From Thermomonas haemolytica (GTDB lineage: Bacteria; Pseudomonadota; Gammaproteobacteria; Xanthomonadales; Xanthomonadaceae): a DNA stretch of 64,000 nucleotides. The notes under the pieces were generated by a model that saw nothing but the letters and a program-made list of their open reading frames with translations, ran no database searches and had not been told where the DNA came from. Below are positions 9,316 to 25,340 of the stretch, piece after piece (position 1 is the stretch's first letter; each line of letters starts with the position of its first letter). A program made the translations under genes and the position numbers. The stretch lies in assembly GCF_004346265.1 (NCBI RefSeq), contig NZ_SMAP01000001.1, forward strand, positions 62,001 to 126,000, read 5' to 3'.

Positions 9316-9357
9316 TAAGCCGGCACTTCCCTTATCGACCCCCGACCCGGTGCCTTG

Positions 9358-10773
9358 ATGTCCACCGCCCTGGTGCTGTTCCGGCGCGACCTGCGCCTGG
9401 CCGACAATCCCGCCCTGCATGCCGCCTGCGCCGCGCACGCGCGCGTGCTGCCGGTGTACGTGCATGCGCCGGACGAGGATGCCCCGTGGGCGCCCGGCGC
9501 GGCCAGCCGCTGGTGGCTGCACCACGCCCTCGAGGCGCTGGACCGCCAGCTGGCGGAACACGGCGGCCGTCTGCACATCGTCCACGGTCCAACCCTGCAA
9601 GCCGTGCGCGCACTGATCGCCGCCACCGGCGCCAGCGCGGTGTACTGGAACCGCCGCTACGAACCGGCGGCGATCGCCCATGATTCCGCCCTGAAAGCGG
9701 CCCTGCGCGAGGACGGCGTGGCCGTGCACAGCCATCCCGGCCCGCTCTGGCACGAGCCCTGGACGCTGGCCACCGACGGCGGCCAGCCGTACCGCGTGTT
9801 CACCCCGTTCTGGCGCAAGCTGCGCGCGCAGCTGCCTGCGCCGACGCCGCTGCCGGTCGCGCGGGCGCGGCAGTGGCTGCAGGCGGACGGCGGCCTGCCG
9901 GTGGCCGCGCTGGGGCTGCTGCCGGCGATCCGCTGGGATGCCGGCCTTGCGGCGCAGTGGACGCCGGGCGAAGCCGGGGCGCAGGAACTGCTGGAAATCT
10001 TCGCGGACGCCGTGAATGATTATGCGAAGTCGCGCGACCTGCCGGCCCGCCATGGCACCTCGCGCCTGTCGCCGCACCTGCATTTCGGTGAAATCACGCC
10101 GGTGCAGATCCATGCCCTGCTGCAGCAGCGCGCGCAGCAGGCCGGGGGCCGCCAGCGTCCGGACCTGGAGCCCTACCTGCGCGAACTGGGCTGGCGCGAA
10201 TTCGCCCACCACCTGCTGTACCACTTCCCGGACACGCCGCAGGCGAACTTCAACCCGCGCTTCGATGCATTCCCGTGGGCGAAGGACAACCCCGCCCTGC
10301 TGGAGCGCTGGCAACGCGGCCGCACCGGCATCCCGCTGGTGGATGCCGGCATGCGCGAACTCTGGCACACCGGCTGGATGCACAACCGGGTGCGGATGGT
10401 GGTGGCCAGCTTCCTCACCAAGAACTTGCGCCAGCACTGGCAGCACGGCGCACGCTGGTTCTGGGACACCCTGGTGGACGCCGACCTGGCCAACAACACC
10501 CTGGGCTGGCAATGGGTGGCCGGCTGCGGGGCCGATGCTGCGCCTTATTTCCGCGTGTTCAACCCCTACCTGCAGTCGGCCAAGTTCGACCCCGACGCCG
10601 CCTACCTCAAGCGCTGGCTGCCGGAGCTGGCGGCGTTGCCGGCCAAGACCCTGCACGAGGCATGGAAACACCAGTCCGCGCTGGCCGCCTGCGGCTATCC
10701 CGCCCCGGTGGTGGACATGGCGGCCTCGCGCGAGGCCGCGCTGGCGGCCTGGGACGCCTTGCCGGCCGTTTGA
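9358..10773 (+). CDS. phrB: Deoxyribodipyrimidine photolyase, class I
   Basis: Repairs UV-induced cyclobutane pyrimidine dimers using FADH- and blue light. It has 471 residues, the normal length for the family. The N-terminal antenna domain starts ALVLFRRDLRLADNPAL. The C-terminal FAD domain carries YAKSRDLPARHGTSRLSPHL, ELGWREFAHHLLYHFP, GIPLVDAGMRELWHTGWMHN and NTLGWQWVAGCGADAAPYFR. ATG 9358 is one codon inside a TTG and starts right at the conserved N-terminus. An ECF-type promoter lies just upstream, so I expect induction with the sigma-factor regulon. It converges with the next gene with a 9-base gap. Confidence 0.95.
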   Translation: MSTALVLFRRDLRLADNPALHAACAAHARVLPVYVHAPDEDAPWAPGAASRWWLHHALEALDRQLAEHGGRLHIVHGPTLQAVRALIAATGASAVYWNRRYEPAAIAHDSALKAALREDGVAVHSHPGPLWHEPWTLATDGGQPYRVFTPFWRKLRAQLPAPTPLPVARARQWLQADGGLPVAALGLLPAIRWDAGLAAQWTPGEAGAQELLEIFADAVNDYAKSRDLPARHGTSRLSPHLHFGEITPVQIHALLQQRAQQAGGRQRPDLEPYLRELGWREFAHHLLYHFPDTPQANFNPRFDAFPWAKDNPALLERWQRGRTGIPLVDAGMRELWHTGWMHNRVRMVVASFLTKNLRQHWQHGARWFWDTLVDADLANNTLGWQWVAGCGADAAPYFRVFNPYLQSAKFDPDAAYLKRWLPELAALPAKTLHEAWKHQSALAACGYPAPVVDMAASREAALAAWDALPAV

Positions 10774-12425: not shown

Positions 12426-12452
12426 TGCATCCACCCCCGCGCCGGCTGCGTA
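12426..12452 (+). promoter_or_regulatory. ECF-type promoter of the lipocalin-cryptochrome operon
   Basis: TGCATCC (12426-12432), 16 bases, then CGTA (12449-12452). The seven-base -35 box is identical to those of the sigma and desaturase operons. Confidence 0.75.
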
Positions 12453-12488: not shown

Positions 12489-13064
12489 ATGCGCCTGCTC
12501 GCCGCTTCGCTGCTCCCGCTCCTGCTGGCCATCGCGGCCACCGGCTGCGCCCGCGCTGCCGCCCCGATCAAGCCGGTGGACCACGTCGACCTGCCGCGCT
12601 ACATGGGGCGCTGGTACGTGGTCGGCATCATCCCGACCCGGCTCGAGCGCGGCCACCACAACCCGGTGGAAACCTACCGCCTCGACCGCGACGGCAACGT
12701 CTGCACCTGGTATCGCTACCGACCGGACCGCTTCGACGCGCCGGTGAAGCTGCTGCACTCCACCGGGCTGGTGGTGCCCGGCACCGGCAATGCCGAGTGG
12801 AAGGTACGCTTCTTCGGCCTGTTCAAGGCGCAGTACAAGGTGGGCTGGCTGGCGCCGGATTACAGCCAGGTGCTGATCGTGCGCGATGCCCGCGATTACC
12901 TGTGGTACATGGCGCGCACGCCGCAGGTCAGCGAAGCCGACTGGCAGGCGATGCAGGAGCGTGCCCGCGCGATGGGCTACGACCCGGCGCTGATCCAGCG
13001 CGTGCCGCAGCGCTGGCCGGAAACGGATGCCGGCCGCGACACCTTCCACGGGGACTGCAAATGA
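12489..13064 (+). CDS. blc: Lipocalin (Blc family), signal peptide
   Basis: A 191-residue bacterial lipocalin. The N-terminus MRLLAASLLPLLLAIAATGC is a signal peptide ending in a possible lipobox Cys (C20). The lipocalin signature is VDLPRYMGRWYVVGIIP, followed by ETYRLDRDGNVCTWYRYRP and a conserved C-terminal YLWYMARTP. Blc-type proteins bind lipids or lysophospholipids and are induced by envelope stress. First gene of a plus-strand unit under an ECF-type promoter; its stop overlaps the next ATG (ATGA). A second, similar lipocalin ends the desaturase operon at 24365. Confidence 0.9.
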   Translation: MRLLAASLLPLLLAIAATGCARAAAPIKPVDHVDLPRYMGRWYVVGIIPTRLERGHHNPVETYRLDRDGNVCTWYRYRPDRFDAPVKLLHSTGLVVPGTGNAEWKVRFFGLFKAQYKVGWLAPDYSQVLIVRDARDYLWYMARTPQVSEADWQAMQERARAMGYDPALIQRVPQRWPETDAGRDTFHGDCK

Positions 13065-13819
13065 GGGCCCTGGTCCTCGTGCTGGCGCTGGCGATGCCGT
13101 TGGTGGGCTGGCTGTCCAACAGCGGGCTCTTGGGCCCGACCAATGGCGAGATCTCAGGCCGCTACCCCACCCTGATCGTCGCCGCCGGCTATGCGTTCTC
13201 GATCTGGGGCCCGATCTTCCTGCTCGACGTGGTGTTCGGCATCGCCCAAGCCCGCGTGCGCGATGCGGATGCACGCCTGCGCCGGATCCGCGCGCTGACG
13301 GCGGGCGGGTTCGCGCTGACCTCGCTGTGGATGGTGGTGTTCACCCTGCAGTGGTTCTGGCTGGCGCTGGCGATCATCTGGGCCAGCCTGGCCTGCATGC
13401 TGGGCGCAGCCTGGCTGGCCTCGCACACCCGCACGCATCCGCGCGGGCCGTGGTGGCAGCACCTGCCGCTGTCGCTGCATGCCGGCTGGGTGTCGCTGGC
13501 GGTGTTCCTGAACGTGGCGCAGGTGGTGGTGGCCTTCCGGCTGCTGCCGGTGGACGCCATGCTGCCGTGGACCCTGGTGCTGTTCGCGCTGGCCGGCGTG
13601 CTGCTGCTGGTCGTGGTGGTGCGCCTGCGCGGCAACCTCTGGTACACGCTGGCGGCGGTCTGGGGCCTGCTTGGCGTGTATGCCAAACAGCACGCGTCCG
13701 CCCTTCCGGGCGCGGCCACTGCCGCCGACGTGGCACTGGCGCTGGCGGTGCTGCTGGCGGTCGCCGCGCTGGCTGCGGGCTACCTGGGCTGGCGGGACAT
13801 GCGCGCCAACGCCGGATGA
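13061..13819 (+). CDS. TspO/MBR-like membrane protein
   Basis: A 252-residue protein with about seven hydrophobic helices and many Trp residues, including YAFSIWGPIFLLDVVFGIAQ near residues 45-65, which fits the TspO/tryptophan-rich sensory protein family or its longer relatives. Such proteins bind porphyrins and are linked to light and oxidative stress. It is translationally coupled on both sides (ATGA overlaps) to the lipocalin and the cryptochrome, so it belongs to the photo-oxidative regulon. The exact ligand is unknown. Confidence 0.7.
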   Translation: MRALVLVLALAMPLVGWLSNSGLLGPTNGEISGRYPTLIVAAGYAFSIWGPIFLLDVVFGIAQARVRDADARLRRIRALTAGGFALTSLWMVVFTLQWFWLALAIIWASLACMLGAAWLASHTRTHPRGPWWQHLPLSLHAGWVSLAVFLNVAQVVVAFRLLPVDAMLPWTLVLFALAGVLLLVVVVRLRGNLWYTLAAVWGLLGVYAKQHASALPGAATAADVALALAVLLAVAALAAGYLGWRDMRANAG

Positions 13820-15345
13820 CCTGCCTGCGCCTGCTGCTGGGGGATCAGCTGAATCCCCACCACCCGTGGTTCGATGCGGTGTCGGCGCAGGTCGTGTACG
13901 TGCTGATGGAGGTGCGGCAGGAGACCGATTACGTCCTGCACCACGCGCAGAAGATCCTCGCCATCTTCGCCGCCATGCGCCGTTTCGCCGACCGCCTGCG
14001 CGCGGCCGGCCACCGGGTGGAATACCTGCGGATCGACGATCCTTCCAACCTGCCGTCGCTGACCGCCAATCTGGACCGGCTGATCGCCCTGCACGGCGCC
14101 ACCGCGTTCGAATACCAGGCCCCGGACGAATGGCGGTTGGACGTGCAACTGCGCGAATACGTTGCGCAGCTGCCGATCTCGGCGCGCGGCGTGGACAGCC
14201 AGCATTTCCTCGCCGAGCGCGACGCCGTGGCGCGCTTCTTCGGCAGCCGCAAGCGCTGGACGATGGAGCTGTTCTACCGCCACATGCGGCAACGCCACGG
14301 CGTGCTGCTGGAGCCCGATGGCAGCCCGCTGGGCGGGCGCTGGAACTTCGATGCCGAGAACCGCAAGCCCTGGCACGGCAGCCCGCCGGAACCGCCGGAC
14401 CTGCGGCCGGTGCACGACCACCGCGCGCTGTGGGCGAGCATCGAGGCCGCGGGTGTGGCCAGCTTCGGCGATCCGTCGGCGGGCGCGTTCCGCTGGCCGA
14501 TCGACCGCGAGGAGGCGCTGGCCCAGCTCGAGGCCTTCGTCGAACACGCGCTGCCGCATTTCGGTGACTACCAGGACGCCTTGAGCCACCGCGCCCAGCG
14601 GTTGTTCCACTCGCTGCTGTCGTTCGCGCTGAACGTGAAGATGCTCTCGCCGGCGGAGGTGATCGCGCGGGTCGAGGCCGAGGGCCGCGCCGGGCGCGCA
14701 CCGCTGGCGGCGGTGGAGGGCTACATCCGCCAGATCCTGGGCTGGCGCGAATACGTGCGCGGCGTGTACTGGGCGCGCATGCCCGGCTACGCCGCCAGCA
14801 ACGCGTTCGGGCATACGCGTCCGCTGCCGCGCTGGTTCTGGGACGGCGACACCCGCATGGCCTGCGTGCGCAGCGCCATCACTCAATCGCTGGCGCACGC
14901 GCACGCCCACCACATCCAGCGGCTGATGGTGATCGGCAATTTCGCGCTGCTGGCCGGGCTCGACCCGCAGGCGCTGCACCGTTGGTACCTCGGCATCTAC
15001 ATCGATGCGTTCGAATGGGTGGAGCTGCCGAACACGCTGGGCATGAGCCAGTTCGCGGACGGTGGCCTGCTGGCGACCAAGCCCTACGTGTCGGCCGCGG
15101 CCTACCTGCACCGGATGGGCGACCACTGCCGGCACTGCCATTACCGCCGCGACCTCGCCACCGGCGCGCGCGGCTGCCCGTTCAATGCCCTGTACTGGGA
15201 CTTCCTCGACCGCAACCACCCGCGCCTGGCGGGCAACCCGCGGTTGGCCATGCCCTACCGGCAGCTGGCACGGATGCCGGCCGAGCGCCGCCAGGCGCTC
15301 GCCGCGCGGGCCGGCGAGTTGCTGGACCAGCTCGATGAGATATGA
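13816..15345 (+). CDS. FeS-type photolyase/cryptochrome (PhrB/CryB group)
   Basis: A 509-residue protein of the FeS-bacterial cryptochrome/photolyase group, which repairs (6-4) photoproducts or acts as a photoreceptor. It begins LRLLLGDQLNPHHPWF, unlike class I photolyases. It has the four Cys expected for a [4Fe-4S] cluster: TRMACVRSAI, then DHCRHC, then RGCPF. FAD-domain segments include YIRQILGWREYVRGVYW and FVELPNT-like FEWVELPNTLGMSQFADGG. It overlaps the TspO-like gene by four bases. Family members use a ribityllumazine antenna rather than a folate. Confidence 0.92.
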   Translation: MTCLRLLLGDQLNPHHPWFDAVSAQVVYVLMEVRQETDYVLHHAQKILAIFAAMRRFADRLRAAGHRVEYLRIDDPSNLPSLTANLDRLIALHGATAFEYQAPDEWRLDVQLREYVAQLPISARGVDSQHFLAERDAVARFFGSRKRWTMELFYRHMRQRHGVLLEPDGSPLGGRWNFDAENRKPWHGSPPEPPDLRPVHDHRALWASIEAAGVASFGDPSAGAFRWPIDREEALAQLEAFVEHALPHFGDYQDALSHRAQRLFHSLLSFALNVKMLSPAEVIARVEAEGRAGRAPLAAVEGYIRQILGWREYVRGVYWARMPGYAASNAFGHTRPLPRWFWDGDTRMACVRSAITQSLAHAHAHHIQRLMVIGNFALLAGLDPQALHRWYLGIYIDAFEWVELPNTLGMSQFADGGLLATKPYVSAAAYLHRMGDHCRHCHYRRDLATGARGCPFNALYWDFLDRNHPRLAGNPRLAMPYRQLARMPAERRQALAARAGELLDQLDEI

Positions 15346-15353
15346 GCCCGGCG

Positions 15354-15380
15354 CGCATCCAAGCCCCCGCCTGCGGCGTA
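15354..15380 (+). promoter_or_regulatory. ECF-type promoter of folE
   Basis: CGCATCC (15354-15360), 16 bases, then CGTA (15377-15380), about 44 bases before the folE ATG. It allows folE to be induced separately from the cryptochrome operon upstream. Confidence 0.7.
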
Positions 15381-15423
15381 AGCACGTCCGTCTGCCCTCC
15401 CCCCTTCCCCAGCGAGCCCGGCC

Positions 15424-16149
15424 ATGTCGCACCCCCTGCGCGAACCCGTTCCCCTCCAGTGCCTGTCCACCATGTCCGCATCGCAGCGCGTGCGCGAGCG
15501 CCTGCGCGCGGCCGGGGTGCGCTTTCACGCCAACGACAACATCGCCGACTACCTGCAGCCGGGAGAGTTGGAGGAAATCGAGCGCGAGGTCGCCGCGCGC
15601 GCGCAGGAAATGCTGCGCGCGCTGGTGATCGACGTGGAGCACGACCACAACACCCACGACACCGGCCGCCGGCTGGCCAAGATGTTCGTGCGCGAGCTGT
15701 TTTCCGGCCGCTACCAGCACGCCCCGGCGGTAACCGAGTTCCCCAATGCCGAGCGCCTGAACGAGCTGATGATCGTCGGCCCCTTGCGCGTGCGCAGCGC
15801 CTGTTCGCACCACCTGTGCCCGATCATGGGCCGGGTCTGGGTGGGCGTGCTGCCGAACGCCGATTCCAACCTGATCGGCCTGTCCAAGTACGCGCGCCTG
15901 ATCGACTGGATCATGAGCCGCCCGCAGATCCAGGAGGAGGCGGTCAGCCAGATCGCCGACCTGCTGGAACGCCGGCTCAAGCCGGACGGCATCGCGGTGG
16001 TGATGGAGGCCGACCACTACTGCATGCACTGGCGCGGGGTGAAGGACGATGAGTCCAAGATGATCAACAGCGTGATGCGCGGCCGCTTCCTGAGCGATCC
16101 GTCGCTGCGCAAGGAGTTCCTGTCGCTGCGCCGCGGCGGTGGCGACTGA
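15424..16149 (+). CDS. folE: GTP cyclohydrolase I
   Basis: Converts GTP to dihydroneopterin triphosphate, the first step of folate and tetrahydropterin synthesis. Family motifs are present: VEHDHNTHDTGRRLAKMFV, RSACSHHLCPIMGRVWVG (zinc and catalytic His/Cys), NLIGLSKYARLIDW and VVMEADHYCMHWRGV. At 241 residues it is slightly long; an internal ATG at 15472 would give a 225-residue protein. Its own ECF-type promoter and its place between photolyase and sigma genes suggest it supplies pterin/folate cofactor for the light-repair system (inference). A strong terminator follows. Confidence 0.93.
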   Translation: MSHPLREPVPLQCLSTMSASQRVRERLRAAGVRFHANDNIADYLQPGELEEIEREVAARAQEMLRALVIDVEHDHNTHDTGRRLAKMFVRELFSGRYQHAPAVTEFPNAERLNELMIVGPLRVRSACSHHLCPIMGRVWVGVLPNADSNLIGLSKYARLIDWIMSRPQIQEEAVSQIADLLERRLKPDGIAVVMEADHYCMHWRGVKDDESKMINSVMRGRFLSDPSLRKEFLSLRRGGGD

Positions 16150-16257: not shown

Positions 16258-16929
16258 TTACAGCCCCACCATCGGCTGCAGCTTGCGCGCCAGCCAACCG
16301 CGGAACTCCAGCGGGCCGTCGAGTGCGGCCACGCAGATGCAGGGTACGCCCGGCGAGGTCACCGGCTGGTGCTCCACGTCGCTGTCGAGGTCGGCCATGT
16401 CGCCGGGGCCGAAATGGCCCAGCTCGTCGTCGTAGGCGCCCTTCAGGATCTGGGTCAGCTCGCTGCCGCGGTGGCTGTGCACCGGCATGCTCTTGCCCGG
16501 TGCGATCTTGAGCAGGATCAGGGTGTCGCCGCTGGCCTTGGGCGCGCGGATCATGTGCACGCCCGGCGCCACCCAGCGCCAGCGCAACGCCTTCCAGCTC
16601 TTGCCGAAGTACGGCTGCAGCGGGCGCGGCAGGGCGTCCACCGGCGGCCGCGCCGGGGCCGTATCCGCCGCCGGCAGGGCCGGGGGCAGCGGCTGCTGCA
16701 GGCGCGAGAGCATGTCCGCGCGCAGGCGCTCGCCGCGGGCGGGGTCTTCCGCGCCCGGCTGCTGCTGCGCCAGCAGGCTGCCGCCCACGCGCTCGGCATC
16801 CGCCAGCTGGCGGCGGCAGTAGGCGCAGCCTTCCAGGTGGGTGTCGGCGACCGCCGCCATCTCCGGCGACAGCGCGCCGGCGGCATGGCTGACCAGGGTG
16901 GCCGGGTCGAGGTGGTGGCGCGGGATCAT
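16258..16929 (-). CDS. chrR: ChrR-like zinc anti-sigma factor with cupin domain
   Basis: A 223-residue anti-sigma factor. The N-terminal zinc anti-sigma domain has the H-x3-C-x2-C motif in THLEGCAYCRRQL; the C-terminal cupin (about 115-223) has PVHSHRGSELTQILKG and SDVEHQPVT as metal ligands. This two-domain layout is that of ChrR, which holds ECF11/RpoE inactive until singlet oxygen or peroxides act. Its ATG overlaps the sigma-factor stop (ATGA), so the two are made together. It is an inner-cytoplasmic soluble regulator with no membrane helix. Confidence 0.92.
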   Translation of the reverse strand: MIPRHHLDPATLVSHAAGALSPEMAAVADTHLEGCAYCRRQLADAERVGGSLLAQQQPGAEDPARGERLRADMLSRLQQPLPPALPAADTAPARPPVDALPRPLQPYFGKSWKALRWRWVAPGVHMIRAPKASGDTLILLKIAPGKSMPVHSHRGSELTQILKGAYDDELGHFGPGDMADLDSDVEHQPVTSPGVPCICVAALDGPLEFRGWLARKLQPMVGL

Positions 16930-17504
16930 ACGGACTCCTGCACGCTGGCCTGCAGGCGCTGGAAGGCCCGCCGGATCGAGGATTTCACGGTGCCCAGCGG
17001 CATCCCGAGCTCGTCGGAGATCTGCTGGTGGGATTTGGCTTCGAAGTACGACATGCGGATCAGGCGGGCCTGGATCGCCGACAGGCGGTCGATCCGTTCG
17101 TTGAGGTCGGCGTGCGCGGCAAAGCTCTCGGCCGAGGAGAAGGCGGGGTCTTCGGTTTCCTCCTCGCAGTCCAGTGCCGGCTCGATGTCCACCGCGATCC
17201 AGTGGTTCTCGCGGCGCAGGCGGTCGATGTGGAGGTTGCGTGCGATCCGGAACAGCCAGGTGGACAGCGTGCTGCGGCCGGCATCGTAGGTGTCGGCGCG
17301 CTGCCACAGCCGCAGCAGGGCCTCCTGCGCCAGTTCCTCGGCCACCGCCTCCGGCGCCCCCAGCCCGCGCAGGTACAGCCGCACGCGCGGGGCGAAGTGG
17401 TCGTAGATGCGCATGAAGCAGGCCTGGTCGCGGCGCAGCGCCACCGCCTGCATCTGACCGATCCAATAACCCGGTTCGCCGGGGCTTGCGTCGGCTATCG
17501 ACAT
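16926..17504 (-). CDS. rpoE: ECF sigma factor (RpoE/ECF11 type)
   Basis: A 192-residue extracytoplasmic-function sigma factor. Region 2 reads FMRIYDHFAPRVRLYLRGLG, EELAQEALLRLWQRADTYD and TWLFRIARNLHIDRLRREN; region 4 reads IRMSYFEAKSHQQISDELG and LGTVKSSIRRAFQRL. Together with the ChrR-like partner it matches the singlet-oxygen sigma factor of Rhodobacter sphaeroides. ATG 17504 fits the conserved start; an in-frame ATG at 17558 would add 18 residues and remains possible because the promoter lies upstream of both. It is autoregulated through the promoter at 17598-17625. Confidence 0.92.
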   Translation of the reverse strand: MSIADASPGEPGYWIGQMQAVALRRDQACFMRIYDHFAPRVRLYLRGLGAPEAVAEELAQEALLRLWQRADTYDAGRSTLSTWLFRIARNLHIDRLRRENHWIAVDIEPALDCEEETEDPAFSSAESFAAHADLNERIDRLSAIQARLIRMSYFEAKSHQQISDELGMPLGTVKSSIRRAFQRLQASVQESV

Positions 17505-17597
17505 GGCTCTGGCCGCCTCGAAGGGCGACAGGTCTCCATGGTGGGTGTTGGATCGCATGGTACGGGAGGCGACGCGGCTGGGGAATCTGGCCTGCAT

Positions 17598-17625
17598 TAC
17601 GCGCCCACGGGCTAATTGGATGCAG
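17598..17625 (-). promoter_or_regulatory. Autoregulatory ECF promoter of rpoE-chrR
   Basis: On the minus strand CTGCATCCAAT (17625-17615), then CGTA at 17601-17598, with 16 bases between TGCATCC and CGTA. The box CTGCATCCAAT is repeated exactly in the divergent plus-strand promoter at 17670. Confidence 0.8.
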
Positions 17626-17669
17626 CGCGGAGGCAGCGCACCCCGGGATTGCCGGCGGCGGCATGCCCC

Positions 17670-17697
17670 CTGCATCCAATCGGCGGCGCGAGGCGTA
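17670..17697 (+). promoter_or_regulatory. ECF promoter of the lipid-modification operon
   Basis: CTGCATCCAAT (17670-17680), with CGTA at 17694-17697; 16 bases separate TGCATCC from CGTA. It precedes the desaturase start by about 29 bases and probably drives all genes to 24937. The rest of the 17505-17725 gap holds no gene that I can see. Confidence 0.8.
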
Positions 17698-17725
17698 CAG
17701 CGGGCATTCCCCAAGGATGCCCGCG

Positions 17726-18682
17726 ATGCCCCAGGACCTGGCGACCGCCGCCCCGCCCTCCTCGCCGCCCCGGCTGGGGCACCGCCTGCGCCAATGGTTC
17801 GACAGCAGCGCGGTGGCGCCGGCGCAAGGGGCGGATGCCGACCGCATCGACTGGCTGCGGGTGCTGCCGTTCGTGCTGCTGCACCTGGGCTGCCTGGGCG
17901 TGCTGTGGGTGGGGGTCTCCCCGGTGGCGCTGGCGGTGGCGGTGGCGCTGTATGCGCTGCGCATGTTCGCGATCACCGCGTTCTACCACCGCTATTTCTC
18001 GCACCGGGCCTTTCGCACCTCGCGCGCGATGCAGCTGGCGTTCGCGCTGATCGGCGCCTCCAGCGTGCAGCGTGGCCCGTTGTGGTGGGCGGCCCACCAC
18101 CGCCACCACCACCGCCACTCGGATACCGCGCAGGACCCGCACTCGCCGCTGCACGGGTTCTGGCGCAGCCACATGGGCTGGTTCCTGACCCGCGGCGCGT
18201 TCGCCACCGACCTCAGCCGGGTCCCCGACCTCGCCCGCTACCCGGAACTGCGCTGGCTGGACCGCTTTGATGTGGCGGTGCCGCTGGCGCTGGCGGCCGG
18301 GTTGTTCGGGCTGGGCGCGCTGCTGCAGGCCCTGTGGCCGGAGCTGGGCACCAGCGGGATGCAGCTGCTGGCGTGGGGGTTCTTCGTGTCCACCGTGGTG
18401 CTGTTCCACGCCACGGTCACCATCAACTCGCTGGCGCACCGCTTCGGCAGCCGCCGCTTCCCCACCCGCGACGACAGCCGCAACAACCTGTGGCTGGCCC
18501 TGCTCACCTTCGGCGAGGGCTGGCACAACAACCACCATTTCTATTCCAGCAGCGCCCGCCAGGGGTTCCGCTGGTGGGAGATCGACCTGACCTGGTACGG
18601 GCTGCGCCTGCTGGCCGTGCTGGGGCTGGTGCGCGATCTCAAGCCGGTGCCCGCCTGGGTGCTGGACAAGGCGGAGCGCTGA
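17726..18682 (+). CDS. Membrane acyl-CoA/fatty acid desaturase
   Basis: A 318-residue membrane di-iron desaturase of the delta-9 type. The three His boxes are visible: HRYFSHR, HHRHHHRHSD and EGWHNNHHFYSS. Hydrophobic helices flank them (VLPFVLLHLGCLGVLWVGV, ALAVAVALYALRMFAI). It introduces double bonds into acyl chains in the inner membrane. AAGGA eight bases before ATG 17726 favours this start over the ATG at 17717. First gene of the ECF-driven lipid operon; the next gene starts two bases after its stop codon begins downstream. Loss of fluidity or provision of unsaturated substrate for cyclopropanation is the likely role. Confidence 0.9.
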   Translation: MPQDLATAAPPSSPPRLGHRLRQWFDSSAVAPAQGADADRIDWLRVLPFVLLHLGCLGVLWVGVSPVALAVAVALYALRMFAITAFYHRYFSHRAFRTSRAMQLAFALIGASSVQRGPLWWAAHHRHHHRHSDTAQDPHSPLHGFWRSHMGWFLTRGAFATDLSRVPDLARYPELRWLDRFDVAVPLALAAGLFGLGALLQALWPELGTSGMQLLAWGFFVSTVVLFHATVTINSLAHRFGSRRFPTRDDSRNNLWLALLTFGEGWHNNHHFYSSSARQGFRWWEIDLTWYGLRLLAVLGLVRDLKPVPAWVLDKAER

Positions 18683-18683
18683 C

Positions 18684-19952
18684 ATGCGGATCGCCATCGT
18701 CGGGTCCGGCATCTCCGGGCTGGCCAGCGCCTGGCTGCTGTCGCAGGCGCACGAGGTGGTGCTGTTCGAGGCCGAGGATTACCTCGGCGGCCATACCCAT
18801 ACCCATGCGGTCGAACAGGCCGGGCGCCGTTACGCGGTGGACACCGGCTTCATCGTCCACAACCCGGTGCACTACCCGCTGCTGACGCGGCTGTTCGACG
18901 ACCTCGGGGTAGCCACCCAGCCCACCACCATGAGCTTCTCGGTGCACGATGCGCGCACCGGGCTGGAATACAACGCCACCTCCCTCGACGGCCTGTTCTG
19001 CCAGCGCCGCAACCTGTTCTCGCCGCGCTTCCTGGGCATGGTGCGCGACCTGCTGCGGTTCTACCGGCAGGCCCCGCAGCTGCTGCAGGGCGACGGGCCG
19101 GGGCCGACCCTGGGCGACTGGCTGGAGGCCAACGGCTACGGCGAGGCCTTCCGCGACCTGCATTTGGTGCCGATGGCCTCGGCGCTGTGGTCCTCGCCGC
19201 CGCAGCAGATCCTGCAGTTCCCGGCGCGCTACCTGGTGCAGTTCATGGCCAACCACCAGATGCTGCAGGTCAGCGGCCGCCCCGAGTGGCGGGTGGTGCG
19301 CGGCGGCTCGTCCACCTATGTTGCCGCGTTGCGCGCGCGCTGGCAGGTGCACGAGCGCCTGCGCTGCCCGGTGCGGGCGATCCGGCGCAACGGCCACGGC
19401 GTGCTGGTGGACAGCCGGATCGCCAACGGCGAGCGCTTCGACCACGTGGTGCTGGCCTGCCACAGCGACCAGTCCCTGGCGCTACTGGCGGATGCCAGCG
19501 CGGACGAGCGCGACATCCTCGGCGCCATCCCCTACCAACGCAACGAAGTGGTGCTGCACACCGATGCGCGCCTGCTGCCGGTCAACCGCAAGGCCTGGGC
19601 GGCGTGGAACGCATACGTGCCGGCCGCGCCTGATGCGCCGTGCACGGTCAGCTATTGCATGAACCTGCTGCAGGGCCTGCAGTCGCCCGAGCCCTTCGTG
19701 GTGACGCTCAACCGCAGCGAGGCGATCGACCCGGCCAAGGTGCTGCGCAAGATCACCTATCACCACCCCGTGTACACCCCGCTGTCGGTGGCGGCGCAGC
19801 GCCGGCGGGCGCAGATCCAGGGCGTCAACCGCACCTGGTTCGCCGGCGCCTATTGGGGCTGGGGCTTCCACGAGGACGGCATGCGCAGCGCGGTGGAAGT
19901 GGCCCACGGGCTGGGCGCGGGCTGGCCCGATGCGCGCAGGGGCGCGGCGTGA
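18684..19952 (+). CDS. FAD-dependent oxidoreductase (amine-oxidase fold)
   Basis: A 422-residue protein starting MRIAIVGSGISGLASAWLLS, the FAD-binding dinucleotide fold, then LFEAEDYLGGHTHTH and VDTGFIVHNPVHYPLL. The C-terminal FAGAYWGWGFHEDGMRSAV is typical of the NAD(P)/FAD proteins that accompany DUF1365 and cyclopropane synthase genes. In Rhodobacter, genes of this kind in the singlet-oxygen regulon help convert methylated fatty acids toward furan fatty acids; equivalence here is an inference. One base after the desaturase, and overlapping DUF1365 by four bases (GTGA). Confidence 0.85.
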   Translation: MRIAIVGSGISGLASAWLLSQAHEVVLFEAEDYLGGHTHTHAVEQAGRRYAVDTGFIVHNPVHYPLLTRLFDDLGVATQPTTMSFSVHDARTGLEYNATSLDGLFCQRRNLFSPRFLGMVRDLLRFYRQAPQLLQGDGPGPTLGDWLEANGYGEAFRDLHLVPMASALWSSPPQQILQFPARYLVQFMANHQMLQVSGRPEWRVVRGGSSTYVAALRARWQVHERLRCPVRAIRRNGHGVLVDSRIANGERFDHVVLACHSDQSLALLADASADERDILGAIPYQRNEVVLHTDARLLPVNRKAWAAWNAYVPAAPDAPCTVSYCMNLLQGLQSPEPFVVTLNRSEAIDPAKVLRKITYHHPVYTPLSVAAQRRRAQIQGVNRTWFAGAYWGWGFHEDGMRSAVEVAHGLGAGWPDARRGAA

Positions 19953-20725
19953 GCGCGCCGCTGCACAGCGCGGTGTACGAAGGCCGGGTCCGGCACCGCC
20001 GGCATGCGCCGCATCCGCATGCGTTCGCCTACCGCATGGCGCAGCTGTACCTGGACCTGGACGAGATCGACCGTGTCTTCCGCGGCCGCTGGCTGTGGTC
20101 GGCCGGACGCCGCAACCTCGCCGAGTTCCGCCGCGCCGATTTCCTCGGCCCGAGCGACCGCCCGTTGAAGGAAGCAGTGAAGGACCGGGTGGAGGCCGCC
20201 ACCGGCGAGCGCCCGGCCGGCCCGGTGCGGCTGCTCACGCACCTGCGCTACGCCGGGCTGGTGTTCAACCCGGTCAGCTTCTATTACTGCTTCGCGGCCG
20301 ACGGCGCGACCCTGCACAGCATCGTCGCCGAGATCACCAACACGCCCTGGCTGGAGCGCCATGCCTACGTGCTGCCGGTGGCGCAGGCCCGCGCGCAGGG
20401 CCGCATCCTGCGCTGGGAGTTTGCCAAGACCTTCCACGTCTCCCCCTTCATCGGCATGCAGCGCCGCTACGACTGGCGCCTGAGCGTCCCCGGCGACGAC
20501 CTGCAGGTGCACATGGACGTGCTGGATGCCGACGGCCGCGAGTTCGACGCCCACCTTTCGCTGCAACGCCTGCCGCTGGGCGCCGCCTCGCTGGCGCGGG
20601 TGCTGTGGCGCTATCCGCTGATGACCGCGCAGGTGGTCGCCGCGATCTACTGGCAGGCGCTGCGGCTGCGCCTGAAGCACACCCCCTTCCACGACCACCC
20701 CCGCCTGTCCGGAGGCCGCCCATGA
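19949..20725 (+). CDS. DUF1365 protein
   Basis: A 258-residue DUF1365 protein: SAVYEGRVRHRRHAPHPHAF, YRMAQLYLDLDEID, LLTHLRYAGLVFNPVSFYYC and ILRWEFAKTFHVSPFIGM. The family is almost always encoded between an FAD oxidoreductase and a cyclopropane-fatty-acid synthase, exactly as here, but its biochemical role is not settled. The start is GTG 19949, overlapping the preceding stop; its own stop overlaps the next ATG. No signal peptide is evident. Confidence 0.88.
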   Translation: MSAPLHSAVYEGRVRHRRHAPHPHAFAYRMAQLYLDLDEIDRVFRGRWLWSAGRRNLAEFRRADFLGPSDRPLKEAVKDRVEAATGERPAGPVRLLTHLRYAGLVFNPVSFYYCFAADGATLHSIVAEITNTPWLERHAYVLPVAQARAQGRILRWEFAKTFHVSPFIGMQRRYDWRLSVPGDDLQVHMDVLDADGREFDAHLSLQRLPLGAASLARVLWRYPLMTAQVVAAIYWQALRLRLKHTPFHDHPRLSGGRP

Positions 20726-21978
20726 GCGCGATCGTCGAACGCGACGCCACGTCCCCCCGCTTCAGCGCCTTCGAGCGCTTCCTGCGCGACCGCCTGCTGC
20801 AGCGCCTGGCCGGCTTCGGCCACGGCCGGCTGGAAGTGCGCGATGCGCTCGGCACGCTTGCGTTCGGGCGTGCCGGCGACGGCCCCGAGGTCACACTGGA
20901 GGTGCTGGACCCGGGGTTCTACCGCATGCTTGCCACCCACGGCAGCGTGGGGGCCGGCGAGGCCTACATGGATGGCCTGTGGCGCTGCAGCGACCTGGTT
21001 GGGCTGGTGCGCCTGCTGGTGCGCAACCGCGACCTGCTGGACGGCATGGAAACCGGCAGCGCGCGCCTGGGCGGGCTGGCGATGAAGGCACTGCACCTGC
21101 TCCGCCGCAATACCCGCGACGGCAGCCGGCGCAACATCGCCGCCCACTACGACCTCGGCAACGACTTCTTCCGGCTGTTTTTGTCCTCCGACCTGATGTA
21201 CTCCTCGGCCTACTGGGCCGGCGCGGACGATACCCTGGAGACGGCCTCCACCCGCAAGCTGGACCTGATCTGCCGCAAGCTGGCCCTCGGCCCTGACGAC
21301 CACGTGCTGGAGATCGGCACCGGCTGGGGCGGCTTTGCCCTGCACGCCGCCCACCACTACGGCTGCCGGGTCACCACTACCACCATCTCGCGCGAGCAGT
21401 ACGAACTGGCTGCCCAGCGCGTGCGCGAGGCCGGGCTGGAGGACCGCATCACCCTGCTGCAGTCGGACTACCGCGATCTCACCGGCCAGTACGACAAGCT
21501 GGTGTCGATCGAGATGATCGAGGCGATCGGCGCCGAATACCAGCCGGCCTACTTCGGCCAGATCGGGCGCCTGCTCAAGCCCGAGGGACTGGCGCTGGTG
21601 CAGGCCATCACCATCGAGGACCACCGCTACCAGCAAGCGCTGCAGTCGGTGGACTTCATCAAGCGCTTCATCTTCCCCGGCTGCTTCATCCCGTCCGTTA
21701 GCGCGATGCTTCAGGCCAAGACCCGCAGCAGCGACCTCGCGCTGGTGGGGCTGGAGGATTTCGGGCTGTCGTATGCGCGCACCCTCAAGGCCTGGCGCGA
21801 GCGCTTCCTGGCGCACCTGGCGGAGGTGCGGGCGCAGGGCTTCGATGAGCGTTTCATCCGCATGTGGGAGTTCTACCTCGCGTACTGCGAGGGCGGCTTC
21901 CGCGAGCGTTCGATCGGCGTTTCGCACCTGCTGCTGGCGAGGCCCGGCTGGCGTCCGCCGGGCGCGGAGGCGGCATGA
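20722..21978 (+). CDS. cfa: Cyclopropane-fatty-acyl-phospholipid synthase
   Basis: A 418-residue SAM-dependent enzyme that methylenates double bonds of membrane phospholipid acyl chains. Motifs: NIAAHYDLGNDFFRLFLSSD, LMYSSAYW, VLEIGTGWGGFALHAA (SAM site), SIEMIEAIGAEYQPAYF and FIKRFIFPGCFIPS. Length and order are those of the Cfa family. It lies in a chain of four-base overlaps with DUF1365 and DUF2878, under the ECF promoter, so cyclopropanation is part of the stress response. Confidence 0.93.
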   Translation: MSAIVERDATSPRFSAFERFLRDRLLQRLAGFGHGRLEVRDALGTLAFGRAGDGPEVTLEVLDPGFYRMLATHGSVGAGEAYMDGLWRCSDLVGLVRLLVRNRDLLDGMETGSARLGGLAMKALHLLRRNTRDGSRRNIAAHYDLGNDFFRLFLSSDLMYSSAYWAGADDTLETASTRKLDLICRKLALGPDDHVLEIGTGWGGFALHAAHHYGCRVTTTTISREQYELAAQRVREAGLEDRITLLQSDYRDLTGQYDKLVSIEMIEAIGAEYQPAYFGQIGRLLKPEGLALVQAITIEDHRYQQALQSVDFIKRFIFPGCFIPSVSAMLQAKTRSSDLALVGLEDFGLSYARTLKAWRERFLAHLAEVRAQGFDERFIRMWEFYLAYCEGGFRERSIGVSHLLLARPGWRPPGAEAA

Positions 21979-22517
21979 GCTTCTGGCTGACCCTGCTGGC
22001 CTACCAGGCCACCTGGTTCGTGGCGGTGATCGGCGCCGGCCACGGCCTGTGGTGGCCGGGCGTGGCCGCGGCGGCGCTGTTCGCGGCGTGGCGGCTGGCC
22101 ATGTCGCCGCAGCGCGCGCTGGAGCTGCGGCTGGTGCTGGCCGCGCTGGCGCTGGGGCTGGTGCTGGAAACCCTGTGGGTGCGCAGCGGGCTGCTGGAAT
22201 ACCACGCCGGCTGGCCGTGGCTGGATGCACCGGGCTGGATCCTGGCGCTGTGGCTGGCGTTCGCGCTGACCGTGCTGCCGCTGCTCGGCTACCTGCAGCG
22301 GCATCTCGGTCTGGCCGCGCTGCTGGGCGCCATCGGCGGCCCGCTGGCGTATTGGGGCGCGGCGCGCGGCTGGGGCGTGGCGCGCTTCCCCGATCCGGCC
22401 TGGCATGGCCTGTTGGCACTGGGCGCCGGCTGGGCGCTGGCGATGCCGCTGCTGGCCTGGCTGGCGCGCCGCGGGTTGCAGGCACGCAACACGATGGGAG
22501 GTGTGGCATGCACGTGA
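21975..22517 (+). CDS. DUF2878 membrane protein
   Basis: A 180-residue polytopic membrane protein with about five or six helices and the segment VLETLWVRSGLLEYHAGWPWLDAPGW, which marks DUF2878. It is found in the same cfa gene clusters of many proteobacteria; its function is unknown. It overlaps cfa by four bases and the next gene by ten. Confidence 0.82.
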   Translation: MSFWLTLLAYQATWFVAVIGAGHGLWWPGVAAAALFAAWRLAMSPQRALELRLVLAALALGLVLETLWVRSGLLEYHAGWPWLDAPGWILALWLAFALTVLPLLGYLQRHLGLAALLGAIGGPLAYWGAARGWGVARFPDPAWHGLLALGAGWALAMPLLAWLARRGLQARNTMGGVACT

Positions 22518-23302
22518 TGCCGTGGGCCATCGGCCAGGGCGGCCAGTTGCTGGCGCTGTGGCTGTTCATGGTGGTGGTGATGACGCTGGGCTGGGCCTGG
22601 CAGCAGCGCCACGCTAATGCCGGGATCGTGGACGTGCTGTGGGCGTTCGGGCTGGCCTGCGCGGCGGTGTGGATGGCCGTGGCCGGCAGCGGCGCGCCGA
22701 CGGCGCGGCTGTTGGTGGGCGTGCTGGGCGCGGCTTGGGGCCTGCGCCTGGCGCTGCACCTGTGGGTGCGCGTGCGCGGCGAGGCCGAGGACGGCCGCTA
22801 CCGCGCGCTGCGCGAGCACTGGCAGGGCCGGCAGTGGAAGTTCTTCGCCTTCTTCCAGTTCCAGGCGCTGCTGGTGGTGCTGTTCGCGCTGCCGTGGCTG
22901 GCGGTGGCCGGGCACCCTGCCCCCGCGGCCTGGCAGCTGGGGCTGGCGCTGGCCGTCTGGATCGTGGCGGTGGCCGGCGAAGCGCTGGCCGATGCGCAGC
23001 TGGCGCGCTTCCGCAATGATCCGGGCAATCGCGGCAAGACCTGCCGCAGCGGCCTGTGGCGCTATTCGCGGCATCCCAACTACTTCTTCGAATGGCTGCA
23101 CTGGTGCAGCTACGCGATCGCCGCGATCGGCGCGCCGCTGGCCTGGCTGGGGCTGCTCGGGCCGGTGGTGATGTACCTGTTCCTGCGCTTCATCAGCGGC
23201 ATTCCCTTTACCGAACAGCAAGCGTTGCGCAGCCGCGGCGAGGACTACCGCGACTACCAGCGGCGCACGCCGATGCTGTTTCCCTGGTTTCCCAAAAACT
23301 AA
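22508..23302 (+). CDS. DUF1295 membrane protein (steroid 5-alpha-reductase-like)
   Basis: A 264-residue membrane protein with roughly seven helices. The C-terminal part has the DUF1295 signature GLWRYSRHPNYFFEWLHWCS and FTEQQALRSRGEDYRDYQRR. The fold is related to isoprenylcysteine methyltransferases and steroid 5-alpha reductases, suggesting a NADPH-dependent reductase or SAM enzyme acting in the lipid bilayer. Its position between two cyclopropane-synthase-type genes ties it to fatty acid modification; the substrate is not known. Confidence 0.85.
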   Translation: MHVMPWAIGQGGQLLALWLFMVVVMTLGWAWQQRHANAGIVDVLWAFGLACAAVWMAVAGSGAPTARLLVGVLGAAWGLRLALHLWVRVRGEAEDGRYRALREHWQGRQWKFFAFFQFQALLVVLFALPWLAVAGHPAPAAWQLGLALAVWIVAVAGEALADAQLARFRNDPGNRGKTCRSGLWRYSRHPNYFFEWLHWCSYAIAAIGAPLAWLGLLGPVVMYLFLRFISGIPFTEQQALRSRGEDYRDYQRRTPMLFPWFPKN

Positions 23303-23321
23303 AACCGTTCCGGAGCCCGCC

Positions 23322-24401
23322 ATGAGCACCGTCATGTCCGAACAGGCCGTTCTGCCGAAAGACCGCCCCGCCCCCGGCCTGCTGGGGCTGGCCGAACGCG
23401 GCTGGCTGCCGGATGCCGCGATCCGCACCGGCATCCGCCGCCTGTGCGAACAGCGCCTGAAGGAAGAGCTGGCCGGCGGCGTGGAGGCCCAGTCCGCGCG
23501 CCAGCGCGAGCGCCTGGACCTGCTGCGCGCCAGCCCGCTGGCGATCGAGACCGAGGCCGCCAATGCCCAGCACTACGAGCTGCCGCCGGCGTTCTTCACC
23601 CATTGTCTCGGTCCGCGCCTCAAATACTCCTGCTGCTACTACCCGCAGGGCGATGAAACCCTGGCCGAGGCCGAGGAGGCGATGCTGGCGCTGTACTGCG
23701 AGCGCGCCGGGCTGGCCGACGGCCAGGACATCCTGGAGCTGGGCTGCGGCTGGGGCTCGCTCACGCTGTGGATGGCCAAGTACTTCCCGAACGCGCGCAT
23801 CACCGCGGTCTCCAATTCCAACGGCCAGCGCGGCTTCATCGAGGCGCGCTGCCGCGAGCGAGGGATCGGCAACGTGCAGGTGCTCACCCGCGACGTGAAC
23901 ACGCTGGCGCTGCCGGAGTCCGCCTACGACCGCTGCGTGTCGATCGAGATGTTCGAGCACATGCGCAACTACGAGAGCCTGCTGGCGCGGATCGGCAGCT
24001 GGCTGCGCCCGGGCGGGCGGCTGTTCGTGCACATCTTCGCCCACCGCACCCTGCTCTACCCGTTCGAGACCGAAGGCGAAGACAACTGGATGGGCCGGCA
24101 TTTCTTCACCGGCGGGCTGATGCCGGCGGCCGACACCCTGCTGCATTTCCAGCAGGCGCTGAAGATCCGCCAGCAGTGGCTGGTGGACGGCACCCACTAC
24201 GAGAAGACCGCCAACCACTGGCTGCAGGCGCAGGACGCCCACCGCGAGGAGGTGATGGCGGTGCTGCGAAAGGCCTACGGCGATGCCGCCGGGCTGTGGT
24301 TCCAGCGCTGGCGGATGTTCTGGATGGCCTGCGCCGAGCTGTTCGGCTACGCGGATGGACAGGAATGGCTGGTGTCGCACTACCTGTTCGAGCGCGCCTG
24401 A
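23322..24401 (+). CDS. SAM methyltransferase, cyclopropane-synthase family
   Basis: A 359-residue SAM methyltransferase: YELPPAFFTHCLGPRLKYSC, DILELGCGWGSLTLWMAKYF (SAM site) and CVSIEMFEHMRNYESLLARI. It differs from Cfa in its short N-terminus and is closer to the coclaurine-N-methyltransferase-like branch that accompanies DUF1295. In the Rhodobacter singlet-oxygen regulon a related methyltransferase acts in furan fatty acid synthesis; that is a possible role here. The ATG at 23322 follows CCGGAG. A lipocalin gene begins within its last 37 bases. Confidence 0.85.
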   Translation: MSTVMSEQAVLPKDRPAPGLLGLAERGWLPDAAIRTGIRRLCEQRLKEELAGGVEAQSARQRERLDLLRASPLAIETEAANAQHYELPPAFFTHCLGPRLKYSCCYYPQGDETLAEAEEAMLALYCERAGLADGQDILELGCGWGSLTLWMAKYFPNARITAVSNSNGQRGFIEARCRERGIGNVQVLTRDVNTLALPESAYDRCVSIEMFEHMRNYESLLARIGSWLRPGGRLFVHIFAHRTLLYPFETEGEDNWMGRHFFTGGLMPAADTLLHFQQALKIRQQWLVDGTHYEKTANHWLQAQDAHREEVMAVLRKAYGDAAGLWFQRWRMFWMACAELFGYADGQEWLVSHYLFERA

Positions 24402-24937
24402 AGGCGGCGCGCCGCCGATGGGCCGCCCCGCTGCTGGCGGTGGCCAGCGCGGGGGCCAGCCATCCGCCGGTCCCGCCAGTGCCGCAGCTGGATCTGCCGC
24501 GCTTCATGGGCACCTGGTATCTGGTGGGTGGCATGCCGACACCATTCGAACGCACCGCCTGGAACGCGGTGCAGACCTACACCCTGCGCCGTGATGGCAG
24601 CATCCTGACCACCCTGACCTTCAACCAGGGCGGGGCCGAAGGCCCGCGCAAGCACATCGAGGCGCCGGCGCGGGTTCGCCCGGGCACCGGCAATGCGGTG
24701 TGGGACGTGCGCGTGTTCGGCCCGTTCACTTCGCAATACAAGGTGGTCTGGTTGCGTGAGGACTACGGGCTGATGCTGGTGGCGCGCGATGCCCGCGACT
24801 ACGCCTGGGTGTTCGCGCGCTCGCCGGCGGTGCCCGAGGCCGAGCTGGAGGCCGCGCGCCGCCGCCTGCAGGGCTGGGGCTACGACCCCGGCAAGTGGCG
24901 CTACGTGCCGCAGGTCGCAGGCCACGCCGCGCAGTAG
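24365..24937 (+). CDS. Second lipocalin (Blc-like)
   Basis: A 190-residue lipocalin: LDLPRFMGTWYLVGGMPTPFE, VQTYTLRRDGSILTTLTFNQ and YAWVFARSPAVPEAELEAARR. It clearly parallels the lipocalin at 12489, down to RPGTGNAVWDVRVFGPF against the other copy's VPGTGNAEWKVRFFGLF. The start is uncertain: ATG 24365 lies inside the methyltransferase gene and gives a basic N-terminus followed by WAAPLLAVASAGA, a plausible signal peptide without a lipobox Cys. It is the last gene of the ECF-driven lipid operon, so lipid or peroxide carriage during envelope stress is inferred. Confidence 0.8.
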   Translation: MAGVALPVRARLKAARRRWAAPLLAVASAGASHPPVPPVPQLDLPRFMGTWYLVGGMPTPFERTAWNAVQTYTLRRDGSILTTLTFNQGGAEGPRKHIEAPARVRPGTGNAVWDVRVFGPFTSQYKVVWLREDYGLMLVARDARDYAWVFARSPAVPEAELEAARRRLQGWGYDPGKWRYVPQVAGHAAQ

Positions 24938-24941
24938 TGCA

Positions 24942-25340
24942 TCAACCGCGCGGACAGGCCGCACGCACCTTCGCATCCAGCCGGCTGAGCTGGGCATAGG
25001 TCCGCTTCAGGCCCAACTGCTCCAATGCGGCACTCCGCCCGGCCTGGGCGGCCCGGCAGCGATCGGACGCCGTCGCCGCGGCGCGATGCCGCCGCGGATT
25101 TTTCACGCTCCGATGCTGCTTCACAGGTGCCTGGCGCAGGCCCGCCGTCGCCTGCGACGCGCTGATGACCGGCTCTGGCCGGTATTCCACCACCCGGTCC
25201 AGGCGCATCGTTGCCGCACAGGGCTGCGCCTGGTAGCTCACCGCGCCGTCGCGGGCAAGACAGCGGTACAGCTGTTCGGCGCGCGCGGGCATCATCTGGG
25301 TACAGACAAGCAGCAGAAGCGCAAGCATCCATCGGCGCAT
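24942..25340 (-). CDS. Secreted DUF4124-like protein
   Basis: A 132-residue protein with a clear signal peptide (MRRWMLALLLLVCTQ, cleavage near MPARA-EQ), then EQLYRCLARDGAVSYQAQPC, resembling the DUF4124 pattern of a Tyr-x-Cys strand followed by a Gly-turn and a second Cys. The rest is basic and Ala/Arg-rich, without recognisable domains. It converges with the lipocalin gene four bases away. A role in the periplasm is likely but unknown. Confidence 0.65.
   Translation of the reverse strand: MRRWMLALLLLVCTQMMPARAEQLYRCLARDGAVSYQAQPCAATMRLDRVVEYRPEPVISASQATAGLRQAPVKQHRSVKNPRRHRAAATASDRCRAAQAGRSAALEQLGLKRTYAQLSRLDAKVRAACPRG

Follow-up and report, generated by a model that had tools for sequence, protein, structure and literature searches.

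A predicted inducible operon for an extended furan fatty acid pathway in Thermomonas haemolytica

Furan fatty acids (FuFAs) are made in Rhodobacter sphaeroides and Rhodopseudomonas palustris by the enzymes UfaM, UfaD, UfaO and FufM. Relatives of all four, as judged from sequence, are encoded in one operon of eight genes at positions 17726-24937 of a 64,000-nucleotide (nt) stretch of Thermomonas haemolytica DNA (assembly GCF_004346265.1, contig NZ_SMAP01000001.1, positions 62,001 to 126,000 of the forward strand; hereafter the window). This set of genes is probably an inducible FuFA operon, and its control by an extracytoplasmic function (ECF) sigma factor and a ChrR-type anti-sigma factor, encoded divergently next to it, is supported. 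Within this genome the evidence consists of orthology, gene order and a promoter motif. Support by analogy comes from elsewhere: the enzyme reactions from R. sphaeroides and R. palustris, and the sigma/ChrR control from Stenotrophomonas maltophilia. A furan product would be expected in this bacterium, and the operon is an extended variant of the known pathway. It consists of eight tightly packed open reading frames, all on the forward strand:

17726..18682, + strand: membrane fatty-acid desaturase (Pfam FA_desaturase, 4.8e-21; histidine boxes HRYFSH, HRHH and HNNHH)
18684..19952, + strand: UfaD relative, amine-oxidase-like acyl desaturase using flavin adenine dinucleotide (FAD) (Pfam Amino_oxidase, 1.7e-23)
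19949..20725, + strand: UfaO relative (Pfam DUF1365, 1.1e-80)
20722..21978, + strand: UfaM relative ('Cfa'), S-adenosylmethionine (SAM) fatty-acyl methyltransferase (Pfam CMAS, 5.7e-80)
21975..22517, + strand: DUF2878, small protein whose hydrophobic sequence suggests a place in the membrane, probable accessory (Pfam, 4.2e-34)
22514..23302, + strand: DUF1295, membrane enzyme with a sterol-reductase/isoprenylcysteine methyltransferase (ICMT) fold (Pfam, 2.4e-71)
23322..24401, + strand: FufM relative, second SAM methyltransferase (Pfam CMAS, 4e-38)
24398..24937, + strand: Blc-like lipocalin, start codon uncertain (Pfam Lipocalin_2, 1.2e-30)

Pfam gave all eight genes the identities proposed in a preliminary description made from the sequence alone. 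That description had the genes chained by overlaps, which holds for four junctions with certain 4-nt overlaps but not for those between the desaturase and the FAD gene (1-nt gap) and between DUF1295 and the second methyltransferase (19-nt gap); the last overlap, also of 4 nt, exists only if the lipocalin starts at 24398, where the codon is CTG and the start is for that reason uncertain. No sigma-70 promoter was found within 17400-25200, and a terminator-like hairpin at 25076-25097 carries no weight as evidence. The genomes searched for comparison comprised one per species and were mutually related rather than independent. Among 38 loci with DUF2878 in related genomes, the desaturase, UfaD, DUF1365 and Cfa genes occurred in this order on one strand in 30, the first seven genes of the operon in order in 22 and all eight in 14, the remaining loci being cut, rearranged or partial. 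The gene order is thus kept beyond chance across these related loci.

The core of the pathway is established in R. sphaeroides and R. palustris, where UfaM methylates vaccenate and UfaD adds a second double bond (PMC7380195). UfaM is a cis-vaccenate 11-methyltransferase, with 11-methyl-12t-18:1 as its product. UfaO, published in 2020, is a DUF1365 protein which in R. sphaeroides inserts an oxygen derived from O2 to give the furan and is both necessary and sufficient for this step; the same step is attributed to the R. palustris enzyme (PMC7380195). The preliminary description had listed DUF1365 as a family of unassigned function, which the published role of UfaO contradicts. Of 199 genomes searched across the phylum, 68 had DUF1365, and of the 40 loci taken, mostly high-scoring ones, all 40 had UfaD beside DUF1365 and 34 had a UfaM-type gene in the locus. 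Among five named Rhodopseudomonas genomes, the three genes were found together in four and a separate cyclopropane fatty acid (CFA) synthase in three, and the order UfaD-UfaO-UfaM in these genomes and in the window is that implied by the numbering RPA2571-2569 (PMC7380195). Compared with three named Rhodopseudomonas genomes, the window UfaD was 42-44 % identical to UfaD and the window UfaO 37-40 % identical to UfaO candidates named by gene position. The window UfaM was 40-41 % identical to the Rhodopseudomonas UfaM candidates (CMAS genes beside UfaD-UfaO) vs 36-37 % to the separate Rhodopseudomonas CFA synthase.

Since both methyltransferases match the CMAS family, the operon could instead be read as one in which two CFA synthases alter the membrane while the other genes have loosely related redox or lipid functions, and the S. 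maltophilia counterparts have indeed been named CfaS1 and CfaS2 (PMC11832516). However, in a methyltransferase tree of 74 rows the window Cfa fell inside a UfaM clade of 48 rows (support 99/96) together with the Rhodopseudomonas UfaM candidates, while five CFA synthases grouped separately (98/89), among them the genome's own, encoded on another contig (C10), albeit on a long branch. The window Cfa also scored below every CFA model cut-off (287 of 400, 285 of 600 and 236 of 650 bits) and the second CMAS protein lower still, whereas two control proteins each passed one cut-off, the genome's own CFA synthase with 563 of 400 bits and a Rhodopseudomonas one with 662 of 600. UfaD and UfaO relatives accompany Cfa, moreover, in the 34 of 40 loci given above. 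By the tree and the cut-offs with their two controls, the assignment of both genes to CFA synthases was rejected, and a cyclopropane operon is regarded as very improbable. From these sequence comparisons the window Cfa is a predicted UfaM relative distinct from the genome's cyclopropane synthase.

The second methyltransferase appears to be a relative of FufM, the enzyme that adds a second methyl group to the furan ring in R. palustris and is known to act on the completed furan (PMC7380195). Two R. palustris candidates other than UfaM are compared with R. sphaeroides UfaM in that work: RPA3082, 38 % identical and described as deleted without effect, and RPA0924, which is FufM, 26 % identical (PMC7380195). 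In the tree, the window protein was placed in a clade of 21 rows (100/100) with the sole Rhodopseudomonas enzyme of its type. The Rhodopseudomonas members of this type were 47-49 % identical to the window protein and 28-29 % to a Rhodopseudomonas UfaM, and exactly one was present per genome in five of five Rhodopseudomonas genomes. On these grounds the FufM-type proteins are provisionally equated with RPA0924, by elimination. Orthologues were sharply set apart from other matches: among 119 genomes of one family, taken to be alphaproteobacterial, 30 had a FufM orthologue with an E value of 1e-92 or lower vs at least 1e-27 for other matches, and over both genome sets searched the values were 1e-92 or lower vs at least 4.9e-29. 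The earlier suggestion that the operon may serve FuFA synthesis thus stands on firmer ground than the sequence alone could give it, relatives of all four enzymes being present.

The arrangement in the window differs from those of the characterized species in that all four genes lie in a single operon, together with the desaturase, DUF2878, DUF1295 and lipocalin genes. In R. sphaeroides ufaM lies apart from the other ufa genes, and in Rhodopseudomonas the fufM-type gene is separate from the ufa genes in each of the four genomes that yielded both. Regulatory genes of the kinds seen in the window also occur near DUF1365 outside the class of this bacterium, where an ECF gene lay nearby in nine and a ChrR gene in 12 of 20 loci. 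Partial likenesses have been described in other bacteria. Aeromonas salmonicida has a cluster of FAD oxidoreductase, DUF1365, cfa and DUF2878 genes (PMC10012899) and Halomonas has consecutive ufaM, ufaD and ufaO genes (PMC12089945); unlike in the window, DUF1295 and FufM are not mentioned for these clusters in the passages that describe them. Among eukaryotes, relatives of UfaM/UfaD, UfaO and FufM occur in Arabidopsis (PMC10940516), and the response of Chlamydomonas to singlet oxygen includes SAK1-dependent induction of CFA1, CFA2 and a DUF1295 gene (PMC4067076), with no furan product described in the relevant passages for either.

The regulatory elements lie immediately upstream of the operon, with a further motif copy before a neighbouring group of lipocalin, photolyase-like and folE genes:

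16926..17504, - strand: ECF sigma factor (Sigma70_r2, 6.8e-18; Sigma70_r4_2, 2e-12)
16258..16929, - strand: ChrR-type zinc anti-sigma factor with a cupin-like domain (TIGR02451, 143 bits, cut-off 124.5)
17671..17697, + strand: candidate ECF promoter of the operon (TGCATCC-N16-CGTA)
17598..17624, - strand: candidate ECF promoter of the sigma/ChrR genes (TGCATCC-N16-CGTA)
12426..12452, + strand: third copy of the motif, before the lipocalin/photolyase-like/folE group (TGCATCC-N16-CGTA)

The sigma factor and ChrR genes are divergent from the operon. The ChrR protein aligned to Protein Data Bank (PDB) entry 2z2s (E value 7e-31) and shares with it the zinc motif HX3CX2C and the cupin residues H-x-H...E...H. 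The -35 consensus of ECF11 promoters is of the TGATCC type, and the sites in the window carry the variant TGCATCC-N16-CGTA. Three sites were present in the window vs 0.17 expected from shuffled sequences (spacing 14-20 nt), and none of 100 shuffles reached three, a contrast that is weakened by the pattern having been written after two of the three sites had been seen. Genome-wide, nine sites were found (spacings 15-17 nt) vs none for a reversed control. In relatives, which are not mutually independent, the 400 nt before the desaturase gene contained the motif in 17 of 35 rows (from 16 loci, as one split gene was counted twice) vs 0.5 % of random 400-mers, and those before the ECF gene did so in 10 of 33 rows vs 0.8 %; nine further ECF rows had a TGATCC...TA[AT] form instead. 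It preceded UfaD in one of 72 rows, and it preceded the second lipocalin, the first gene of the neighbouring group, in all five relatives with that gene in the locus (six examined). At the other genomic sites, the genes that followed encode proteins of the Redoxin and AhpC/TSA families, a HlyD-type protein, an OEP-type efflux protein and one unidentified protein, with one site lacking a clear gene. The Redoxin-family and AhpC/TSA genes may also belong to this regulon. At these two sites (locus L006 on contig C4 and locus L008 on contig C7) the spacing was 17 nt and the motif lay just before the gene.

The closest known counterpart of this arrangement is smlt2375-smlt2367 of S. maltophilia (PMC11832516). 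By annotation only, it comprises a desaturase, a FAD oxidoreductase, a hypothetical protein, Cfa, two inner-membrane hypothetical proteins, a second Cfa and a lipocalin; like the window operon it is divergent from rpoEc-chrR, and it is strongly dependent on sigma-Ec, whereas it differs in starting with an additional gene, smlt2375, and in having chrA after chrR (PMC11832516). In a single RNA-seq run the matching nine genes were up 165- to 697-fold without ChrR, an effect reversed without rpoEc, and a sigma-Ec box was predicted before both rpoEc and smlt2375 (PMC11832516). ECF/ChrR control of the window operon is supported because the genes are divergent, the motif is shared and conserved, and these data concern an operon with the same annotated gene order. 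Cluster induction in S. maltophilia contributes to tolerance of superoxide (menadione) and to ceftazidime susceptibility (PMC11832516). The enzymes were published in 2025 as cyclopropane synthases CfaS1 and CfaS2 together with hypothetical proteins, and the word 'furan' is absent from the main text (PMC11832516). The present reading reassigns this strongly stress-induced type of operon to FuFA synthesis and would predict dimethyl-furan lipids, a type of fat that scavenges reactive oxygen, in bacteria from which none were reported in the literature searched. Neither the assignment of the whole block to FuFAs nor a link between DUF1295 and FufM was met there among the matches listed, and among the same matches, supplements not being covered, no publication joined DUF1295 or DUF2878 with FufM.

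The photo-oxidative control proposed in the preliminary description stands only in part. Regulation by ECF/ChrR is upheld by the divergent genes, the motif and the S. maltophilia transcriptome. The photolyase-like gene behind the same motif does point towards a photo-oxidative role, but a purely photo-oxidative one is disfavoured since the S. maltophilia sigma-Ec/ChrR/ChrA system hardly aids tolerance of singlet oxygen and raises that of superoxide; mutants were almost as viable as the wild type with Rose Bengal or tert-butyl hydroperoxide (PMC11832516).

Taken together, the following sequence of events may be proposed. Inactivation of ChrR would free the ECF sigma factor, which would transcribe its own genes, the operon and the lipocalin/photolyase-like group from TGCATCC-N16-CGTA promoters. 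The desaturase would make or add to the double bond on phospholipid chains, UfaM would methylate it and UfaD would add a second, conjugated double bond. UfaO would then insert an oxygen derived from O2, closing the furan, and FufM would add the second ring methyl group.

Several observations weigh against this reading or its firmness. The effect of sigma/ChrR on singlet-oxygen tolerance in S. maltophilia is slight, as described above. The identities of the window UfaM and UfaO are moderate (37-41 %) and refer to candidates named by gene position rather than to the characterized proteins, and the equation of the second methyltransferase's relatives with RPA0924 was reached by elimination. One R. 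palustris metagenome-assembled genome (G370, locus L155) had CFA and FufM-type genes, and UfaM was not found in it, which may reflect either an incomplete assembly or a real loss. Of the 35 desaturase rows, 18 had no copy of the strict motif, and the same held for 23 of the 33 ECF rows. No report of FuFAs from relatives of this bacterium was found in the literature searched. Finally, R. sphaeroides makes FuFAs with ufaM, ufaD and ufaO alone (PMC7380195), so that the desaturase, DUF2878, DUF1295 and lipocalin genes are not required in that species.

Among these additional genes, DUF1295 showed a specific association with FufM. Across the 40 DUF1365 genomes, a full-length DUF1295 (E<1e-50) was present in 10 of 11 with FufM (E value of 1e-96 or lower) vs 3 of 29 without (Fisher P=3.4e-6, uncorrected for phylogenetic kinship and with the threshold set after looking). 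With a looser threshold, under which the nearly full-length match in G179 (1.5e-29) was counted, the latter figure became 4 of 29 (P=1.1e-5), and with any DUF1295 match to an E value of 0.001 the comparison was 11 of 11 vs 11 of 29 (P=3e-4). DUF1295 also lay beside FufM (>100 bits within 2.5 kb) in 26 of the 30 loci of the one family and in 52 of the best 80 named loci, the 28 misses including 26 from Bradyrhizobium; four of the misses had weak DUF1295 pieces (30-58 bits), and in locus L162 there was no room upstream of FufM. In two genomes (G136 and G226) the DUF1295-FufM pair was located away from the DUF1365 locus, which indicates that the tie is to FufM itself. Two others (G149 and G198) had DUF1295 at the ufa locus in a genome without FufM. 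DUF1295 directly preceded FufM in all eight Rhodopseudomonas loci, from which it would follow that RPA0923, the neighbour of RPA0924, is the DUF1295 gene; the main text on FufM names RPA0923 only in strain and plasmid lists (PMC7380195). Against DUF1295 being required, FufM is sufficient by itself, both in vitro and in R. sphaeroides (PMC7380195). We infer that DUF1295 is a partner step tied to FufM, which would give an uncharacterized family a testable pathway; that DUF1295 and DUF2878 have no assigned function, as the preliminary description stated, still stands.

The fold of DUF1295, to judge from a structural model (predicted local distance difference test score, pLDDT, 89), is shared with sterol reductases and ICMT. 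The best matches were the sterol reductases 4quv (Z 13.8), 7c83 (12.4) and 7bw1 (11.6), followed or interleaved by ICMTs (Z 12.1, 11.1 and 10.4) and 8xku_G from the Arabidopsis Ycf2-FtsHi complex (Z 12.6); these seven rows stood well above the rest, the next unrelated row having Z 6.8, although Z values under about 13, which only 4quv exceeds, can be common among helical bundles. A Foldseek search with the model gave no match at an E value of 0.001 or lower. Of four residues, D160 and N189 were kept in 83 of 83 rows, R167 in 80 and E193 in 77, and these may correspond to contact residues of SRD5A.

One alternative for this protein alone is that DUF1295 is a second membrane methyltransferase of the ICMT type, acting for example on a carboxyl group or another lipid. 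Its closest PDB relative by sequence is Ma-ICMT (1e-5, compared with 0.0095 for PbSRD5A), the ICMT fold matches are those given above, and there is a weak NCBIfam isoprenylcysteine methyltransferase match (25 of 160 bits). The ICMT alignments begin, however, at model residue 24, 59 or 60, vs residues 3-4 for the reductases, and the protein passes the cut-off of Pfam Steroid_dh (8e-9), which makes a methyltransferase possible but doubtful. A second alternative extends to the whole operon: a DUF1295 reductase would remove double bonds before furan formation, and the pathway would end with a methylated chain that is saturated in part or completely. The modelled likeness to sterol double-bond reductases and the position of DUF1295 between the UfaM and FufM genes are compatible with such a truncated pathway, but UfaO and UfaD occur side by side in each of the 40 loci and DUF1295 tracks FufM, an enzyme acting on the finished furan, so little credence is given to it.

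Within the FuFA reading a more specific role can be imagined. A furan ring attacked by singlet oxygen or peroxyl radicals gives an ene-dione chain. The fold of DUF1295 is that of reductases acting on steroid enones, and the protein might itself reduce enones in the membrane with NAD(P)H, saturating the reactive ene-dione in place and completing a furan-scavenging cycle. Such a role would account for its co-occurrence with FufM, its presence at the ufa locus in G149 and G198, and the singlet-oxygen induction of its Chlamydomonas relative; the proposal is speculative and is itself considered unlikely.

The desaturase would supply the double bond methylated by UfaM. It scored below the DesA equivalog cut-off (99 of 400 bits), its box histidines (H88, H93, H124, H125, H128, H129, H267, H270 and H271) were kept in 31-32 of 32 rows, and it preceded UfaD in 30 of 38 related loci; the genome has two further FA_desaturase matches. 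DUF2878 and the lipocalin are probably accessories. Of 60 related genomes, 39 had DUF2878, and it was present in 11 of 20 DUF1365 loci of the same class vs 1 of 20 outside it, often following UfaM within the class. No PDB relative of it was detected by phmmer, and earlier publications mention it as VC1123 and as part of an Aeromonas cluster (PMC12971978, PMC10012899). The lipocalin matched the Blc model (8.7e-18) below its cut-off. Two related genomes (loci L046 and L047) had DUF2878-DUF1295-lipocalin in a stretch that gave no match to UfaD, DUF1365 or Cfa, showing that these three families occur apart from the core genes too.

The AlphaFold model of UfaO, built from three sequences, was of low confidence (pLDDT 72.5). 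Its best matches were beta-barrels of a spirocyclase, a protein resembling fatty acid-binding proteins and nitrobindin, at Z 7.0-7.7, under the tool's trust line of 8. Nitrobindin binds haem, and the likeness, a lead only, might hint at the cofactor of UfaO.

The neighbouring group behind the third motif copy consists of four genes:

12489..13064, + strand: second lipocalin (Lipocalin_2, 1.8e-36)
13061..13819, + strand: unnamed hydrophobic protein (no Pfam family even at E 1)
13816..15345, + strand: photolyase-related protein (DPRP, 3.8e-74)
15424..16149, + strand: GTP cyclohydrolase I, folE (8.6e-45)

Parts of this group (12489-16149) adjoin the FuFA operon in six relatives of the same genus. 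The idea that the hydrophobic protein at 13061-13819 is TspO was dropped, given the Pfam result listed for it. A second, ordinary DNA photolyase (FAD_binding_7, DNA_photolyase) is encoded close by at 9355-10773.

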